NCBI GenBank assembly: GCA_026993075.1
Contig: JALWUQ010000077.1
Span: 1-35,980, forward strand
DNA from: Campylobacteraceae bacterium
GTDB lineage: Bacteria > Campylobacterota > Campylobacteria > Campylobacterales > JALSKU01
DNA: 35,980 bases
Direction of reading: 5' to 3'
The translations under genes were made by a program, and so were the position numbers. The notes below the pieces were generated by a model that saw only the letters and a list, made by a program, of their open reading frames with translations, was not told the origin of the DNA and ran no database searches. The first letter of the stretch is position 1, and every line of letters begins with the position of its first letter. Shown here in pieces: positions 15,426 to 23,802 of the stretch.

Positions 15426-16164
15426 AAGCTTTGACCTTAGAATTTAAATTTTTGAGATAATAGAAAAATTCACTATTTCCCTCTTTTCCTTTTATTTTAG
15501 ACTCTTCTTTGGATATGATTTGTAACTTGTATTTTATAAGCTCACTTTCAAATTTTATACAAGCTCTTTTTAGAGCATTTGTATCTTTGACAACGCCTCT
15601 TTTATCTCTTTTGACATTTTTACCTACTTCAAACTGTGGTTTAAAAAGTATAATTATCTCATTTTTTGCAAAGTTTATCAAACTGTTTAAAATATATAAA
15701 ATACTGATAAAAGAAACATCACAGGTCACCAAATCAAACTTTTTTTTACATTTAAGTTTTCTTATATCCTGGCTCTCCTTAGAAATAATTTTTTTATTTT
15801 CTTTCAAAATTGGATGAAGTTGTCCCTTTCCGACATCAACTGCATATATTTTTTCAGCATTCATCTCAAGTAAAACTTGTACAAATCCTCCTGTACTGCT
15901 ACCAACATCAAGACAAATTTTATTGTTTATTTCAATATCTTTATCTTTTAAAAACTCTTTTAATTTATCTCCTGCTCTGCTGACATATCTTTTTTTTTCC
16001 AAAACCTCTATTTTTTCACTATTTTTAATTTTAAATGATGGCTTGTCGATAATCTTTCCGTCAACTTTTATATTTCTGTTTTTTATTGCTTCATTGGCTT
16101 TGTTTCTGCTGTTAAAGAAATCATTTTCTACTAAAAAAATATCTAATCTCTTCATGTTATTCAT
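15415..16164 (-). CDS. tlyA: TlyA family rRNA (cytidine-2'-O)-methyltransferase
   Basis: A 249-residue protein with an N-terminal S4 RNA-binding domain (R-L-D-I-F-L-V through the S-R-A-G-D-K-L junction) and a FtsJ-like SAM methyltransferase domain with D-V-G-S-S-T-G-G-F and L-F-K-P-Q-F-E. TlyA methylates cytidines in 16S and/or 23S rRNA and its presence governs capreomycin susceptibility in species studied; short forms like this one modify mainly 23S rRNA. The start at 16164 overlaps the moeA stop as ATGA, so translation is coupled. Campylobacter tlyA is likewise near ligA and ribF. Confidence 0.93.
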   Translation of the reverse strand: MNNMKRLDIFLVENDFFNSRNKANEAIKNRNIKVDGKIIDKPSFKIKNSEKIEVLEKKRYVSRAGDKLKEFLKDKDIEINNKICLDVGSSTGGFVQVLLEMNAEKIYAVDVGKGQLHPILKENKKIISKESQDIRKLKCKKKFDLVTCDVSFISILYILNSLINFAKNEIIILFKPQFEVGKNVKRDKRGVVKDTNALKRACIKFESELIKYKLQIISKEESKIKGKEGNSEFFYYLKNLNSKVKAYEK

Positions 16165-17354
16165 ATTAAAATAGCCTCTGTGACTTCACCCTCATTTATA
16201 TTTCCTTGATTTTCATCTACTATAACGAGCGCATCACTCTTGCTTGTAGATAAAAAATTAGAAGTTTGTTGAGAAGATGCATTTTTGGCAAATATTTTAC
16301 CATTTTTGTATGATAAAGTAACTCTTGCAAAATCAACTCTATTTTCTTTTGATTTAATAATCTCTTCGACAATAACGGTAATCTTTTTATTTTTATATTC
16401 TTTTATACCGGCTATTTTCTTAACCGCCGGAAGTAAGAAATCATAAGAATTTATCAGTAATGCAGATGGATAGCCCGGTAATCCAAAAAATAGTTTTTCT
16501 TTTTTTACTCCAAATATCAAAGGTCTGCCGGGACGAATATTGGTCATAGTAAATTTTGTATCCAAACCAATATCTTTTGCAATATCTTTTGTAAAATCAT
16601 ATTTACCTTTAGATGCTCCGGCACTACTTAAAAGGATATCATTTTGTTTTAAAGCCGAAGCAAAAAGTTTATTCATAGTGCTTGGTTCATCTTTGACTTT
16701 TCCAAGATAAACAATATCGGCAAATGGCTCTAACATGCCTTTTAAGATATAAAAATTTACATTTTTTACTCCTGCCTTATAACTTTGTTCCCAAGGTTCT
16801 TGTATTTCATTTCCTGTTACTATGATGCCAATACTCGGCCTTGTATAAACTTTTATTTGATAAAATCCAAGATTTGCCAGTAGAGATACTTTTTTATAAT
16901 CAAGTACTTCACCTTGATGTAGTATTGTTTCATCTTTTTTTATTTCACTCCCAGCTAAGTCTATTAAATCTCCTTTTTTGGGTGCTTTTTTGATAATAAT
17001 TTTATCTTCGTCTATCTCTACATCTTCTATTCTGACAGCTGTATCAGAATTTTCGGGAATGATGCTTCCTGTCATAGTAAAGATAGCCTCATTTGCTTGT
17101 ACTTTTTTTCTCTCTTTGTCTCCTGCTTTGCTTTCACCTGTGATTTTTAATATTGCGGGATAGCCTTTTATATCTTCTATGTGGAAACAAAAACCGTCGA
17201 TTGCACTTTTGTCAGATTCTGGAATATTATATTTTGCATAAATATTTTCATATAAAACTCTATTATAAGCATTTTCCAATGTTACTACTTCAAAGCTTTG
17301 TGTTTTTACGGCATTTAATATAATCTCTTTGGCTTCATTTCTTGTTACTTTCAT
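16161..17354 (-). CDS. moeA: Molybdopterin molybdenumtransferase (MoeA)
   Basis: A 397-residue enzyme of molybdenum cofactor synthesis that inserts molybdate into adenylylated molybdopterin. It has the N-terminal MoeA segment with N-R-V-L and S-A-I-D-G-F, then T-G-S-I-I-P, a central MoCF-binding domain with G-I-I-V-T-G-N-E-I and a L-S-S-A-G-A-S-K-G-K-Y-D loop, and G-L-P-G-Y-P near the C terminus. The loop has A-G-A where the common form is S-G-G-V-S, a mild divergence. It overlaps both neighbours by 4 nt (ATGA). A second MoeA-like gene is directly upstream. Tungsten use is also possible in this family. Confidence 0.9.
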   Translation of the reverse strand: MKVTRNEAKEIILNAVKTQSFEVVTLENAYNRVLYENIYAKYNIPESDKSAIDGFCFHIEDIKGYPAILKITGESKAGDKERKKVQANEAIFTMTGSIIPENSDTAVRIEDVEIDEDKIIIKKAPKKGDLIDLAGSEIKKDETILHQGEVLDYKKVSLLANLGFYQIKVYTRPSIGIIVTGNEIQEPWEQSYKAGVKNVNFYILKGMLEPFADIVYLGKVKDEPSTMNKLFASALKQNDILLSSAGASKGKYDFTKDIAKDIGLDTKFTMTNIRPGRPLIFGVKKEKLFFGLPGYPSALLINSYDFLLPAVKKIAGIKEYKNKKITVIVEEIIKSKENRVDFARVTLSYKNGKIFAKNASSQQTSNFLSTSKSDALVIVDENQGNINEGEVTEAILI

Positions 17355-18346
17355 CTTATATCCTTTATAGATTCCAAAAGCCCGCCATGAGCTCTTTTCA
17401 AAACTTCTTCTTTGCTGATTTTGTCACCTATTAAAAATCTGCCAATCCATATATCAAAGGCGGTTTTTTTATAAAAAAGTGCCGCAGCGGGAACTGCAGT
17501 TACTGGAGTATCTTTTATCCAACCTATTGTGAGCATATTGCCAGGTTGTATAGGGTTGCCTCTTATAAAATTATCCACTCCGGCATCAAAAATAGCTTTA
17601 TAAGTTACATCATCAGGATCTACCGAAGTTCCTCCAGTTAGTACAACTAAATCAAACTTCTCTGCAAACTCGATAATTTTATCTTTTATCTGTATTTTGT
17701 CATCAGGTAAAATTATTTTTTCTTCTATATTGCAAGAAAATTCAGCAAGTTTTGGTTTTAACTTATCATAAAATTTATCTTTGATTCTACCATGATAAAC
17801 TTCATTACCAGTTATTATCAATCCAGCTTTTTTATGCGTAAAAGGTACTATTTTTATGATTCCTTCTCCTGCAATTTTTACAGCATCTTCTACATCTTTT
17901 TTTGGAGAAAGCAAAGAGATGATTCTAACAGCAGCAACTTTATCGCCTTTTTTGACAATAGAATTATTGTAAATAGTAGGCATAGAGGGTTCACCGACAG
18001 AGTTAAATCTAAAAAGTTTTTTAACATCAATTTTACAAACTCCAAAAATATTTGAGAATATTGTGATTTTTCCCTCTTTTGGCTCTTTACTTATGTAAGT
18101 ATTTTCTCCTGATACAGCATTTGACAATATCTTTGCTGCATCATTTTCATGGATTTTATCATCTCCTATTTCAAAAACATATATATGGTCTTTTCCAACT
18201 TTTTTTAATGTTTGAATATCTTCTTGTTTTACAATATGACCTTTTTTGAAAATTCTACCCTTAAATCCTTGTTCAGGATCTACTTTTGTTATGTCATGAA
18301 GTAAAACTTCTCCAATGGCATCCTCAACCTTTATCATTTTTGCCAA
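17351..18346 (-). CDS. MoeA-like molybdopterin-binding protein
   Basis: A 331-residue protein with a C-terminal MoCF_biosynth domain (A-G-L-I-I-T-G-N-E-V-Y, then V-V-L-T-G-G-T-S-V-D-P-D-D) but an N-terminal half unlike true MoeA, matching what I know as the MoeA_like molybdopterin-binding family of uncertain step. It may bind or deliver Moco or act on MPT-containing substrates. TTG at 18346 is the likely start: AAGGA lies 6 nt upstream, whereas the in-frame ATG at 18337 would be 15 nt away. The start lies within ligA (23-nt overlap) and the stop overlaps moeA. Confidence 0.82.
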   Translation of the reverse strand: MAKMIKVEDAIGEVLLHDITKVDPEQGFKGRIFKKGHIVKQEDIQTLKKVGKDHIYVFEIGDDKIHENDAAKILSNAVSGENTYISKEPKEGKITIFSNIFGVCKIDVKKLFRFNSVGEPSMPTIYNNSIVKKGDKVAAVRIISLLSPKKDVEDAVKIAGEGIIKIVPFTHKKAGLIITGNEVYHGRIKDKFYDKLKPKLAEFSCNIEEKIILPDDKIQIKDKIIEFAEKFDLVVLTGGTSVDPDDVTYKAIFDAGVDNFIRGNPIQPGNMLTIGWIKDTPVTAVPAAALFYKKTAFDIWIGRFLIGDKISKEEVLKRAHGGLLESIKDIR

Positions 18347-20348: not shown

Positions 20349-20819
20349 ATGTTTTATACTATTTATGATACAAATTTTATAGGAAAAGTTATACTTTACG
20401 GAGATGATGCTTTTCTTTATGGGCTTGAATTTTACAAAGAGGATTTTATCCAACCGCAGTGGATTGAAAATAAAGATAAATTTAACAAAGTTATAACAGA
20501 GTTAGAGTTGTATTTTGAGGGAAAACTGCAAAATTTCTCTATACCACTAAAAATCAAAGGTAGTAAATTTCAACAACAAGTATATAATGCGCTTTTACAA
20601 ATACCTTATGGAAAAACGATAAGCTATAAAGAATTGGCAAAGAGTGCAGGCAATCAAAAAGCTTACAGAGCAGCCGGCAATGCTAATGGCAAAAACCATA
20701 TAGCCATCATCATTCCTTGTCACAGAGTTATAGCAAGTGATGGCAGTATAGGCGGATATGGCGGAGGACTTTTTATAAAAAGAAAACTTTTAAATCTTGA
20801 GGGAGTTTGTCTTGTATAA
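20349..20819 (+). CDS. ogt: Methylated-DNA-protein cysteine methyltransferase (Ogt/MGMT)
   Basis: A 157-residue suicide repair protein that transfers alkyl groups from O6-alkylguanine to its own Cys124, in the I-P-C-H-R-V motif. The Tyr/Arg helix-turn-helix region is seen in Y-N-A-L-L-Q-I-P-Y-G-K-T-I-S-Y and A-A-G-N-A-N-G-K-N; S-I-G-G-Y-G-G-G follows the Cys. It lacks the Ada N-terminal activator domain. The ATG at 20349 is chosen because AAGG lies about 8 nt upstream; the longer in-frame version would begin inside the palindrome. The downstream DUF2905 gene starts inside its last codons. Confidence 0.93.
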   Translation: MFYTIYDTNFIGKVILYGDDAFLYGLEFYKEDFIQPQWIENKDKFNKVITELELYFEGKLQNFSIPLKIKGSKFQQQVYNALLQIPYGKTISYKELAKSAGNQKAYRAAGNANGKNHIAIIIPCHRVIASDGSIGGYGGGLFIKRKLLNLEGVCLV

Positions 20820-21018
20820 GATATTTTTTTATATAGGAGGCATTTTTATCATTTTGGGTATTTTAACTTTTTTCTTTAACGGGTATTTTTTTAAACTCCC
20901 TGGCGATATAGTGGTAAAAAAAGAAAATTTCAGCTTTTATTTTCCTATAACTAGCATGATAATTTTGAGTATTGTTTTAAGTTTTTTATTTTCTGTATTT
21001 TCAAAATTTTTTAAATAA
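20812..21018 (+). CDS. DUF2905 small membrane protein
   Basis: A 68-residue protein with two hydrophobic helices separated by a polar segment containing L-P-G-D-I-V-V-K-K-E-N-F-S-F-Y-F-P, the recognisable DUF2905 core. Function is unknown; members are widespread small inner-membrane proteins. TTG at 20812 is the likely start, overlapping the ogt stop, with GGGAG at 20801-20805. The coupling suggests co-expression with ogt but no functional link is established. Confidence 0.85.
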   Translation: MYKIFFYIGGIFIILGILTFFFNGYFFKLPGDIVVKKENFSFYFPITSMIILSIVLSFLFSVFSKFFK

Positions 21019-21136: not shown

Positions 21137-21196
21137 TCAAAACAACTTCTTTTTTTTCTATTTTTTTTATAAACTAAAAATACAGGAGAAGATGTT

Positions 21197-22282
21197 ATGA
21201 ACTTTAAAAAATGGAAAGATGGTAAGGATTATTCTCTCGGGGCAGAATTGGAGGCGAGATTTCAAGATAAAAAAAACTATAAACTTTTAAATCTCTCATC
21301 AAAAATGCAAAAACTTATAAATAAAAAATACAAAAAAAGAATTCACCAAGAGTTTTTAGAGTGTATGGTTGAATTTGTAAGCCCAATATGTAAAAACTCA
21401 CAAGAAGTTATAGATGAACTTCAAGACAGTATCAGATACTTTTTATCTTTAAGTGATAAATTTTTATTGAGCATATCAGGTTCTTATTCGCTACTGGTTG
21501 GTCCACTTAAGCATGTAGATGAGCAAAGATATGATTCTTTTGCAAATGAATACGGTATCCTTCTCTCTAGATTTCATATATGTGGATTTCATATACATGT
21601 TGGCATGCCAACAAGTGATGATGCGCTAAAAGCGTACAATGTAACTTTGGAATATCTTCCCGTATTTTTAGCTCTTAGTGCAAATTCTCCTTTTTTTAAT
21701 GGTGAATTCACAGGACTTTTATCTTACAGAGCCAAACTTTTTGAACAGTTACCAAGGGCTGGTCTTTCATCATATTTTGATACATTTGAAGATATGAAAG
21801 ATTTATATGAAAAAATGTATAAATCCGGTACCCTAAAAAGTCATAAGGATATTTGGTGGGATGTCAGAATCAGTCCTGTATTTAAAACTTTGGAGATTAG
21901 GATTTGTGATGCAAGCAATGATTTTGAAAGGTTAAGGCTTTTGATAAATCTTTTTCAAGCATTATGTCTTTACTCAAAAGAGATTGAGCTTAAAAAGATA
22001 CCACATCAAATACTTTTACAAAACAGATGGAATGCGGCTAGACATGGGCTTGATGGTATTTTTCAAAATAATGACAAGATTTGCACTATAAGAGAGCATT
22101 TTTTGGATTTATTGAAAAATATGGAAAAAAAGAGTATATTCTTAAAACTAAATACTGACAAATCAATAGAAAAATTAAAAAATTTAGCTTATGAAGATGA
22201 GTTGGCGAAAAAAAAGATAAGGACATTTGAGAAATATAAAAATCTTTTAAATGTAGAAAAGCTTGGAAAGGTAGAGATTTGA
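21197..22282 (+). CDS. GCS2/YbdK-like carboxylate-amine ligase
   Basis: A 361-residue protein of the glutamate-cysteine ligase type 2 family: L-G-A-E-L-E-A-R-F at the start (metal-binding Glu residues), G-F-H-I-H-V-G-M in the middle, R-A-G-L-S-S-Y-F, and D-I-W-W-D-V-R-I-S with K-T-L-E-I-R-I-C-D-A. These enzymes use ATP to join a carboxylate, often the gamma-carboxyl of glutamate, to an amine; YbdK itself has weak gamma-glutamylcysteine activity. The substrate is unknown. The stop overlaps the start of the next gene, a GGT-family hydrolase, so synthesis and cleavage of a gamma-glutamyl bond could be paired. No glutathione synthetase gene is nearby. Confidence 0.85.
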   Translation: MNFKKWKDGKDYSLGAELEARFQDKKNYKLLNLSSKMQKLINKKYKKRIHQEFLECMVEFVSPICKNSQEVIDELQDSIRYFLSLSDKFLLSISGSYSLLVGPLKHVDEQRYDSFANEYGILLSRFHICGFHIHVGMPTSDDALKAYNVTLEYLPVFLALSANSPFFNGEFTGLLSYRAKLFEQLPRAGLSSYFDTFEDMKDLYEKMYKSGTLKSHKDIWWDVRISPVFKTLEIRICDASNDFERLRLLINLFQALCLYSKEIELKKIPHQILLQNRWNAARHGLDGIFQNNDKICTIREHFLDLLKNMEKKSIFLKLNTDKSIEKLKNLAYEDELAKKKIRTFEKYKNLLNVEKLGKVEI

Positions 22283-23802
22283 ATTTGGGAGTTATAAGTG
22301 CAGGGGATAAACAAACTTTAAAGGCAGGAGAATGGATACTAAAAATTGGTGGCAATGCTTATGACGCGATGCTCGCTTGCATGTTGGCCGCTCCTATTTG
22401 TGAGCCTATCTTTACTAGTCTTGGTGGTGGTGGTTTTATGCTTAGTGCAAAACAAGGCGATAAACCAAAGATATATGATTTTTTTGTAAATGTACCATCA
22501 AGCAAGATAGCAAATCCTGAATTTTTTCCCATTGAGGTTGATTTTAAAACTACAATTCAAGAGTTTCATATAGGATGTGGTGCGGCAGCGGTGCCTGGCA
22601 TGGTAAAAGGTATATGGAAAATTTATGAGGATTTGGCGAGCTTACCGTTTGAAACTATCGTACAACCTGCTTTGAAATATGCTACAAAAGGCATTCATCT
22701 ATCACCTATACAGGCAGATTTTATAAAACTTTTAAAACCGATATTTACTTCCACTAAAAGCAGTAAAAATCTTTATGTTAAAGATGGAAATCTTATCGAA
22801 CCGTCTCATCTTTTTACCAATTACGAATATGGTGATTTTTTAAAAGAGTTTGCCAAAAAAGGCTCTGACTTGTTTTACAATGGCGAGATAGCAAACAATA
22901 TAGAAAATATGTGCATAAAACATAATGGATTGTTGGATAAGAGTGAATTGGAAAACTATCAGGTAAAGATAAGAGAGCCAATCAATTTAAAATATAAAGA
23001 TTATGACATATTTACCAATCCGCCTCCCTCAAGTGGTGGTATTTTGACTGCTTTTAGCCTGCTTTTGTTAAATGATGAAGATTTAGGAGAATTTGGAAGT
23101 AAAGATTATCTTAAAAAACTTATAGAATCTCAAGAAATAACAACTCTATTTAGAAGTAAACATATCAATGAATTTTTGCATAAAAATGGTTTGGAAAATA
23201 TATTAAAAGATGATGTACTCTTGCAAACTTTCAAAAAAGATTTTCACTCCCGCTTAAATCTTTGGGGTAACACAACTCATATAAGTATCATAGATAAATA
23301 CGGTAACGGTGCAAGTACAACTACGACAAATGGTGAAGCATGCGGTCATTTGATCCCAGAATGCGGTATTATGCTAAACAATATGTTAGGAGAGGAGGAT
23401 TTGAACCCTCATGGCTTTTTTAAATGGAAAAGTGGCATAAGACTTCCCTCAATGATGGCACCTACAGTTGTGCAAAAAGATAAAAAAATTTCTTTGCTTT
23501 TAGGAAGCGCGGGGAGCAACCGTATAAGAAGTGCCATAATGCAGGTTATTATAAATCATCTTAATTTTAAAATGCCCATACAAGAAGCTATATCTGCACC
23601 AAGAGTACATTTTGAAAAAAATACGATTTTCACTGAACCGCCTTTAAACATAGAATTAAACAATGAATTAAAAAAGTTATATGAAGTTAAAAAATTTGAC
23701 AATTTAAATCTATTTTTTGGAGGGGTGCAGGCTGTAACAGGAGATTATGAAGCAGGAGCTGACCCAAGACGGGGTGCTTATAGTAAAGTTATTAAATTTT
23801 AG
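22279..23802 (+). CDS. Gamma-glutamyltranspeptidase-family Ntn hydrolase, no signal peptide
   Basis: A 507-residue protein that should self-cleave between Asn331 and Thr332 (N-T-T-H) to give two subunits, with Thr332 as nucleophile. Also visible are S-L-G-G-G-G-F-M-L, P-P-P-S-S-G-G-I, Asn in T-T-T-T-N, G-S-A-G-S-N-R-I and the terminal G-A-D-P-R-R. Unlike E. coli GGT it has no N-terminal signal peptide, so it is probably cytosolic. The Arg that holds the glutamyl alpha-carboxylate (D-F-R in E. coli) is Phe69 here. The start is TTG at 22279 or 22285, overlapping the upstream ligase gene. It may act on a related gamma-glutamyl or N-acyl compound rather than glutathione. Confidence 0.85.
   Translation: MNLGVISAGDKQTLKAGEWILKIGGNAYDAMLACMLAAPICEPIFTSLGGGGFMLSAKQGDKPKIYDFFVNVPSSKIANPEFFPIEVDFKTTIQEFHIGCGAAAVPGMVKGIWKIYEDLASLPFETIVQPALKYATKGIHLSPIQADFIKLLKPIFTSTKSSKNLYVKDGNLIEPSHLFTNYEYGDFLKEFAKKGSDLFYNGEIANNIENMCIKHNGLLDKSELENYQVKIREPINLKYKDYDIFTNPPPSSGGILTAFSLLLLNDEDLGEFGSKDYLKKLIESQEITTLFRSKHINEFLHKNGLENILKDDVLLQTFKKDFHSRLNLWGNTTHISIIDKYGNGASTTTTNGEACGHLIPECGIMLNNMLGEEDLNPHGFFKWKSGIRLPSMMAPTVVQKDKKISLLLGSAGSNRIRSAIMQVIINHLNFKMPIQEAISAPRVHFEKNTIFTEPPLNIELNNELKKLYEVKKFDNLNLFFGGVQAVTGDYEAGADPRRGAYSKVIKF

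Follow-up and report, generated by a model that had tools for sequence, protein, structure and literature searches.

A YbdK-type ligase and a remodelled gamma-glutamyltransferase-family hydrolase encoded by a conserved, overlapping gene pair in Campylobacterota

To our knowledge, the cellular role of the YbdK-type carboxylate-amine ligases is still open. BesA of the beta-ethynylserine pathway is a possible precedent for the gene pair described here; in ergothioneine biosynthesis, the hydrolytic partner, EgtC, belongs to a different Ntn family. The ergothioneine pathway has a logic in common with the pair, employing both a gamma-glutamyl ligase (EgtA, a gamma-glutamylcysteine synthase) and an amidohydrolase (EgtC), as described in PMC6154287. 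The GCS2 family, to which the YbdK-type ligases belong, takes in gamma-glutamylcysteine ligases, and activity of this kind, weak in E. coli YbdK, is ascribed to YbdK by a title cited in PMC2588565; the characterised ligase relatives named in the same article all use the glutamyl gamma-carboxylate or a similar one. For the gamma-glutamyltransferase (GGT) family, the review PMC8062742 describes several extremophile members as intracellular and devoid of the lid loop, the native Picrophilus enzyme having hydrolytic activity alone, and gives the role of the cytosolic GGT-like YwrD as unassigned.

The window, i.e. the whole stretch of DNA that was analysed, is an entire contig of 35,980 nucleotides from a genome of 1.9 Mb in 88 contigs; its closest match among genome contigs is a Campylobacteraceae MAG, with 98% identity for the ligase. 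The ligase gene (positions 21197..22282, forward strand) starts with ATG, encodes 361 amino acids and is preceded by a putative Shine-Dalgarno-like AGGAGA (21184..21189, forward strand). The hydrolase gene (22279..23802, forward strand) starts with TTG and encodes 507 amino acids. The stop of the former and the start of the latter share the four nucleotides TTGA (22279..22282, forward strand), and a second putative Shine-Dalgarno-like stretch, GGAAAGG (22265..22271, forward strand), lies within the 3' end of the ligase gene, just 5' of the hydrolase start. This stretch corroborates the TTG start, as does the same overlapping start in relatives, where it is mostly ATGA. The overlap of four nucleotides is kept in 19 of the 23 distinct loci with both genes, the other four having gaps of 30-274 bp; L043 was left out of this count as a duplicate of L032, and L040, L041 and L082 because they contain a single gene of the two. 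Most of the 18 loci inspected have a purine-rich, ribosome-binding-like stretch before the second start, which in overlapping loci falls within the end of the ligase gene. An earlier note on this DNA had proposed translational coupling through the TTGA overlap; both reading frames lie exactly where it placed them, and the proposal holds.

In the window, the pair sits between an Ogt-like gene and ruvX, and the same arrangement is found in L023 and L024 (neighbours named by eye). The ruvX-dprA-ilvC block is intact without the pair in G001, G007 and G008 (again named by eye), and in G005 ruvX has a different neighbour and the pair is located on another contig. The two genes therefore behave as a unit that can be missing or relocate. 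In the window, the interval from the Ogt-like gene to the ligase also contains a 73-residue membrane-protein-like reading frame (20797-21018), DUF2905-like by eye. Further upstream, at 16161-18346, two MoeA-like (molybdopterin) reading frames of 397 and 331 residues, named by eye, lie side by side.

The ligase matches the GCS2 profile PF04107 (E=8.5e-41) and passes the YbdK family model TIGR02050 with 206.3 bits (cut-off 176.4). The GhExE motif is present in all 23 aligned ligases, E. coli YbdK included. A predicted model of medium confidence (pLDDT 70.8) has YbdK (PDB 1r8g) as its top structure match (E 3.2e-18), followed by ligases of glutathione synthesis and Pup enzymes. The protein thus shares with E. 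coli YbdK its fold, motif, length and a score above the family cut-off, at an identity of 24-25% over most of its length (plasmid-borne copies compared); unlike E. coli ybdK, the ligase gene of the window is coupled to a GGT-like gene. From its family membership, the ligase probably forms a gamma-glutamyl bond.

The hydrolase is a member of the GGT family of Ntn hydrolases, with 318.1 bits against PF01019 (gathering score 27, E=1.5e-94), but stays below the cut-off of the NCBIfam GGT equivalog TIGR00066 (345.0 bits versus 357.85). Residues were compared by aligning 18 complete paired hydrolases with 11 separate GGTs of Campylobacterota and with E. coli GGT; the contig-cut sequences of L028, L030, L032, L033 and L041 (genome G044) and the interrupted frame of G330 (L090) were left out. 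The nucleophile and its TTH motif are retained, Thr332 (codon 23272..23274, forward strand) taking the place of E. coli GGT Thr391, with Thr in 18/18. The carboxylate clamp of true GGTs is lost in all 18. At the place of Arg114 (E. coli numbering throughout) there is Phe, Phe69 in the window (codon 22483..22485, forward strand), where the 11 separate GGTs all have Arg; Ser463 is replaced by Met, such that the Ser462/Ser463 pair aligns with Ser-Met. Further pocket changes common to the 18 are Q430 to M, P482 to A, G484 to S and D433 to E, the last being Glu372 in the window (codon 23392..23394, forward strand). On the amine side, an Asn-containing TxN-like motif, the gap placement of which is uncertain, and an acidic residue are kept in all 18; the alignment around N411 and S462 depends on gap placement. 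The motifs YDFFV, NNM[LM]GEEDLNP, RLPSMM and GSAGSNRIRSA are found in 18/18 paired hydrolases and in 0/11 separate GGTs. The AF2 model of the hydrolase is poor (pLDDT 59.4) and unfit for pocket analysis.

Compared with the true GGTs of E. coli and of the Helicobacter/Campylobacter type, with which they have PF01019, the nucleophile Thr and TTH in common, the paired hydrolases also lack the lid-loop segment (18/18 by alignment) and a signal peptide (none seen in 18/18); identity to same-phylum GGTs is about 31%. Their N-termini start just 6-11 residues ahead of a conserved AGD, and the maximal 12-residue mean hydropathy within the first 30 residues is at most 1.11, versus more than 2.1 in 10 of the 11 separate GGTs. 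The eleventh, L081, lacks an evident hydrophobic stretch at the N-terminus when the script's choice of start is used. The short N-terminus and its low hydropathy make a cytosolic enzyme likely, and with no signal peptide on the hydrolase the two proteins would meet in the cytosol. In being intracellular and lid-less, and in the change at the Arg114 place, they resemble the GGT-like proteins of Geobacillus, Thermus and Picrophilus and YwrD (PMC8062742); those proteins, however, have Ser at the Arg place and an altered TTH in the clades of PMC4568574 (YwrD by description only), whereas the paired hydrolases have Phe and an intact TTH.

Published substitutions help in reading this pocket. In B. 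licheniformis GGT, replacing the matching Arg by Phe made the activity undetectable, whereas R109S left 85% of it; R114L likewise made the activity of E. coli GGT undetectable; extremophile enzymes with Ser at this place exist, and some hydrolyse gamma-glutamyl substrates (all PMC8062742). The loss of the Arg counts against plain gamma-glutamyl transfer, though not decisively, and on its own leaves the donor unfixed, since some Ser-type enzymes hydrolyse such substrates and R109S stays largely active. According to PMC4568574, the TxN residues are assigned to the amino group of the donor and the Ser pair to its carboxyl group; in the alignment, the retained TTH, TxN-like motif and acidic residue suggest continued recognition of the amine of the donor. 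With the clamp gone and these elements kept, the probable donor is either a gamma-glutamyl compound with a masked alpha-carboxylate or an amine-bearing acyl group without such a carboxylate.

Among certain marine relatives of Campylobacter, the two genes are rarely apart. Among 397 Campylobacterota genomes, 11 contain both, one the ligase only, none the paired hydrolase type only and 385 neither, the hydrolase adjoining the ligase in 11 of the 12 ligase-bearing genomes (Fisher p ~1e-20 for co-occurrence, with genomes taken as independent of kinship). Thirteen genomes had passed the ligase threshold; G194, with a 70-residue match of 33% identity in a 605-residue frame, was dropped. Only lower-identity GGTs are present in 70 of the 397, the full-length ones at no more than 34%. 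Among 100 relatives, the ligase occurs in nine genomes, the window's own counted, and each of the nine also encodes a hydrolase with 50% identity or more. G044 adds a tenth hydrolase above this threshold, which starts at a contig edge, so that whatever adjoins it there lies beyond the sequence, and which is the sole case of the hydrolase type without the ligase; two more relatives hold distant GGTs only (31% and 23%). G374 has the ligase (L082 7770-8855) without any PF01019 gene in its genome, a natural instance of the ligase at work by itself, which fits the ligase acting first. Where genomes have a PF01019 gene, that of the pair is the sole one in 17 of 18. In G330, the frame of the paired hydrolase has an in-frame TAA (L090 7289-8809), and the same genome contains a second, unpaired GGT-family gene.

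Taking both genome samples together, the pairs are spread over six families (f1, f6, f9, f18, f20 and f22). One of the carriers is a named strain, Sulfurospirillum arcachonense DSM 9755. For the 16 complete pairs, the identity matrices of the two proteins correlate (Mantel r 0.84, 0/5000 permutations) and the ligase and hydrolase trees agree in their main groups. The earlier note had named a pair not conserved in neighbours as the outcome that would speak against its idea; the pair proved conserved (9/9 in the 100 relatives, 11/12 in the 397 genomes), and its view of the two genes as one functional unit is upheld by co-occurrence and overlap. Near-strict pairing of this kind in small genomes offers a direct handle on the compound that one enzyme makes and the other consumes, and identifying one substrate would shed light on both families, each of them poorly understood. 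A literature search for YbdK-type or GCS2 ligases with GGT gave, among the matches listed, no title or abstract start describing the pair; such neighbourhoods may already figure in a survey of amidoligases.

Pathway families were sought by profile search in 19 genomes, namely the pair carriers plus G374, with its lone ligase, and G044, with its hydrolase at a contig edge. E. coli-type GshA (PF04262) was above cut-off in 0/19. PF02955 was above cut-off in 15/19, with full-length strong GshB-like matches in 3/19; in the window's genome, its matches are RimK-like ATP-grasps, not GshB. The earlier note had seen no glutathione synthetase nearby, and indeed there is none among the reading frames at 15-30 kb, named by eye. 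An ordinary glutathione cycle in the window's genome is unlikely. On another contig of this genome (C74; L098 914-6990), an M14 carboxypeptidase, two RimK-like ATP-grasps and an M20 peptidase lie together; this cluster was considered as a specific partner of the pair and rejected, its 471-residue ATP-grasp being present in 33 of the 100 relatives and in six of the nine ligase-bearing ones.

We propose that the pair encodes a single amide module of the cytosol: the product of the ligase, probably a gamma-glutamyl amide, or a derivative of it, would be acted on by the remodelled hydrolase; we give this about an even chance of being right. By analogy with its family, the ligase would use ATP to activate a carboxylate, most likely that at the gamma position of glutamate, for coupling to an amine. 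The hydrolase would cleave itself before Thr332, which may then remove or transfer the acyl group from what the ligase makes or from a derivative that arises later. Of the gamma-glutamyl module put forward in the earlier note, the coupling, the conserved pairing and the single unit thus stand. The chemistry it gave the hydrolase, breakage or transfer of an ordinary gamma-glutamyl bond, is weakened and not supported in that form: the residues that hold the alpha-carboxylate are replaced in 18/18 and the window protein falls short of the TIGR00066 cut-off. A point against the module is that the two enzymes by themselves resemble a futile cycle. An intermediate step encoded elsewhere would remove this objection, but none was found.

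Other explanations differ in which of these observations they accommodate. Two unrelated enzymes might merely travel together, as the ligase retained alone in G374 and the 0/12 GGT count near GCS2/YbdK genes inspected outside Campylobacterota would allow; co-occurrence in 11/12 genomes, the conserved overlap, the agreeing trees and the joint presence or absence of both genes at one site nearly refute this, and we consider it very improbable. Less probable still, to the point of being negligible, is that the pair serves a known gamma-glutamyl pathway such as that of ergothioneine, with the GGT-like protein replacing EgtC: the shared ligase-amidohydrolase logic speaks for it, but it is contradicted by the search for the EgtD-type histidine methyltransferase (PF10017), which was above cut-off in 0/19 genomes with one weak match below, and the EgtA model gives the ligase 13.8 bits against a cut-off of 370.8.

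Plain turnover of gamma-glutamyl thiols, with the ligase making gamma-glutamylcysteine and the hydrolase degrading it in a glutathione-like cycle without glutathione synthetase, draws on the gamma-glutamylcysteine ligases within GCS2 and the weak YbdK activity, on the GshA place that the ligase could fill in these genomes, and on the GshB-like proteins of three of them. It is unlikely in our view: the clamp is missing throughout, with the Arg-to-Phe exchange leaving the B. licheniformis enzyme without detectable activity, the PF02955 matches in the window's genome are of the RimK type, and breakdown of glutathione or gamma-Glu-Cys by Gram-negative GGTs is usually periplasmic, unlike a hydrolase without signal peptide. 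Slightly better placed, if still improbable, is a hydrolase that no longer performs gamma-glutamyl chemistry and hydrolyses a different amide, the ligase likewise using another acid. The same family contains HpxW (oxamate) and, as a precedent, the class IV cephalosporin acylases; the clamp has given way to hydrophobic Phe and Met, and single D433 changes conferred cephalosporin acylase activity on E. coli GGT (PMC8062742). Set against this are the amine-side acidic residue and TxN-like motif kept in 18/18, and the use of the glutamyl gamma-carboxylate or a similar one by the characterised ligase relatives.

Returning to the cytosolic amide module, a more specific version is a self-contained module of two genes in Campylobacterota for amide protection and deprotection, at work in cells that lack the usual glutathione route. 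The ligase would cap an amine with glutamate, the alpha-carboxylate would be masked or removed, and the re-tooled GGT-family enzyme, keeping amine recognition and discarding carboxylate recognition, would release or transfer the group. We put this forward tentatively, as a speculation with rather less than an even chance.

Outside the phylum, plasmid searches gave no ligase or hydrolase of at least 60% identity. No annotated GGT lay within about 3-6 kb in 12 GCS2/YbdK neighbourhoods inspected outside Campylobacterota, and the pair was in none of five GGT neighbourhoods inspected. Absence outside the phylum stays unproven, because the plasmid ligases are about 24-36% identical and the PLSDB gene tables incomplete. 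A Picosynechococcus plasmid (L104 3989-5509) encodes a short GGT-like protein with part of the paired-type small-subunit motif; its residue at the R114 place is something other than Phe or Arg.

Some neighbours recur beside the pair or the ligase. A divergent SixA-like histidine phosphatase gene is found just 5' of the ligase in L026 (5343-5846), L027 (62-568), L028 (5258-5758), L029 (67-594), L031 (5378-5974), L033 (884-1384), L035 (5165-5665) and L082 (7157-7696); His_Phos_1 was confirmed for L026 only, and the gene is absent from the window. In L027, L029, L033 and L035, a small reading frame of 86-93 residues lies between it and the ligase. The phosphatase was dropped as a candidate pathway partner, being frequent beside the pair but not constant. 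Three genomes of family f9 have an N-formylglutamate amidohydrolase-like gene, or pieces of one, near the pair on the opposite strand (L085 9380-10198, with a Pfam match under the cut-off; L086 13304-13999; L090 9638-10456). Finally, two Legionella plasmids (L036 8114-9028, L115 1934-2737) carry a class II glutamine amidotransferase, of another Ntn family, near a YbdK gene, a possible parallel to the pair.
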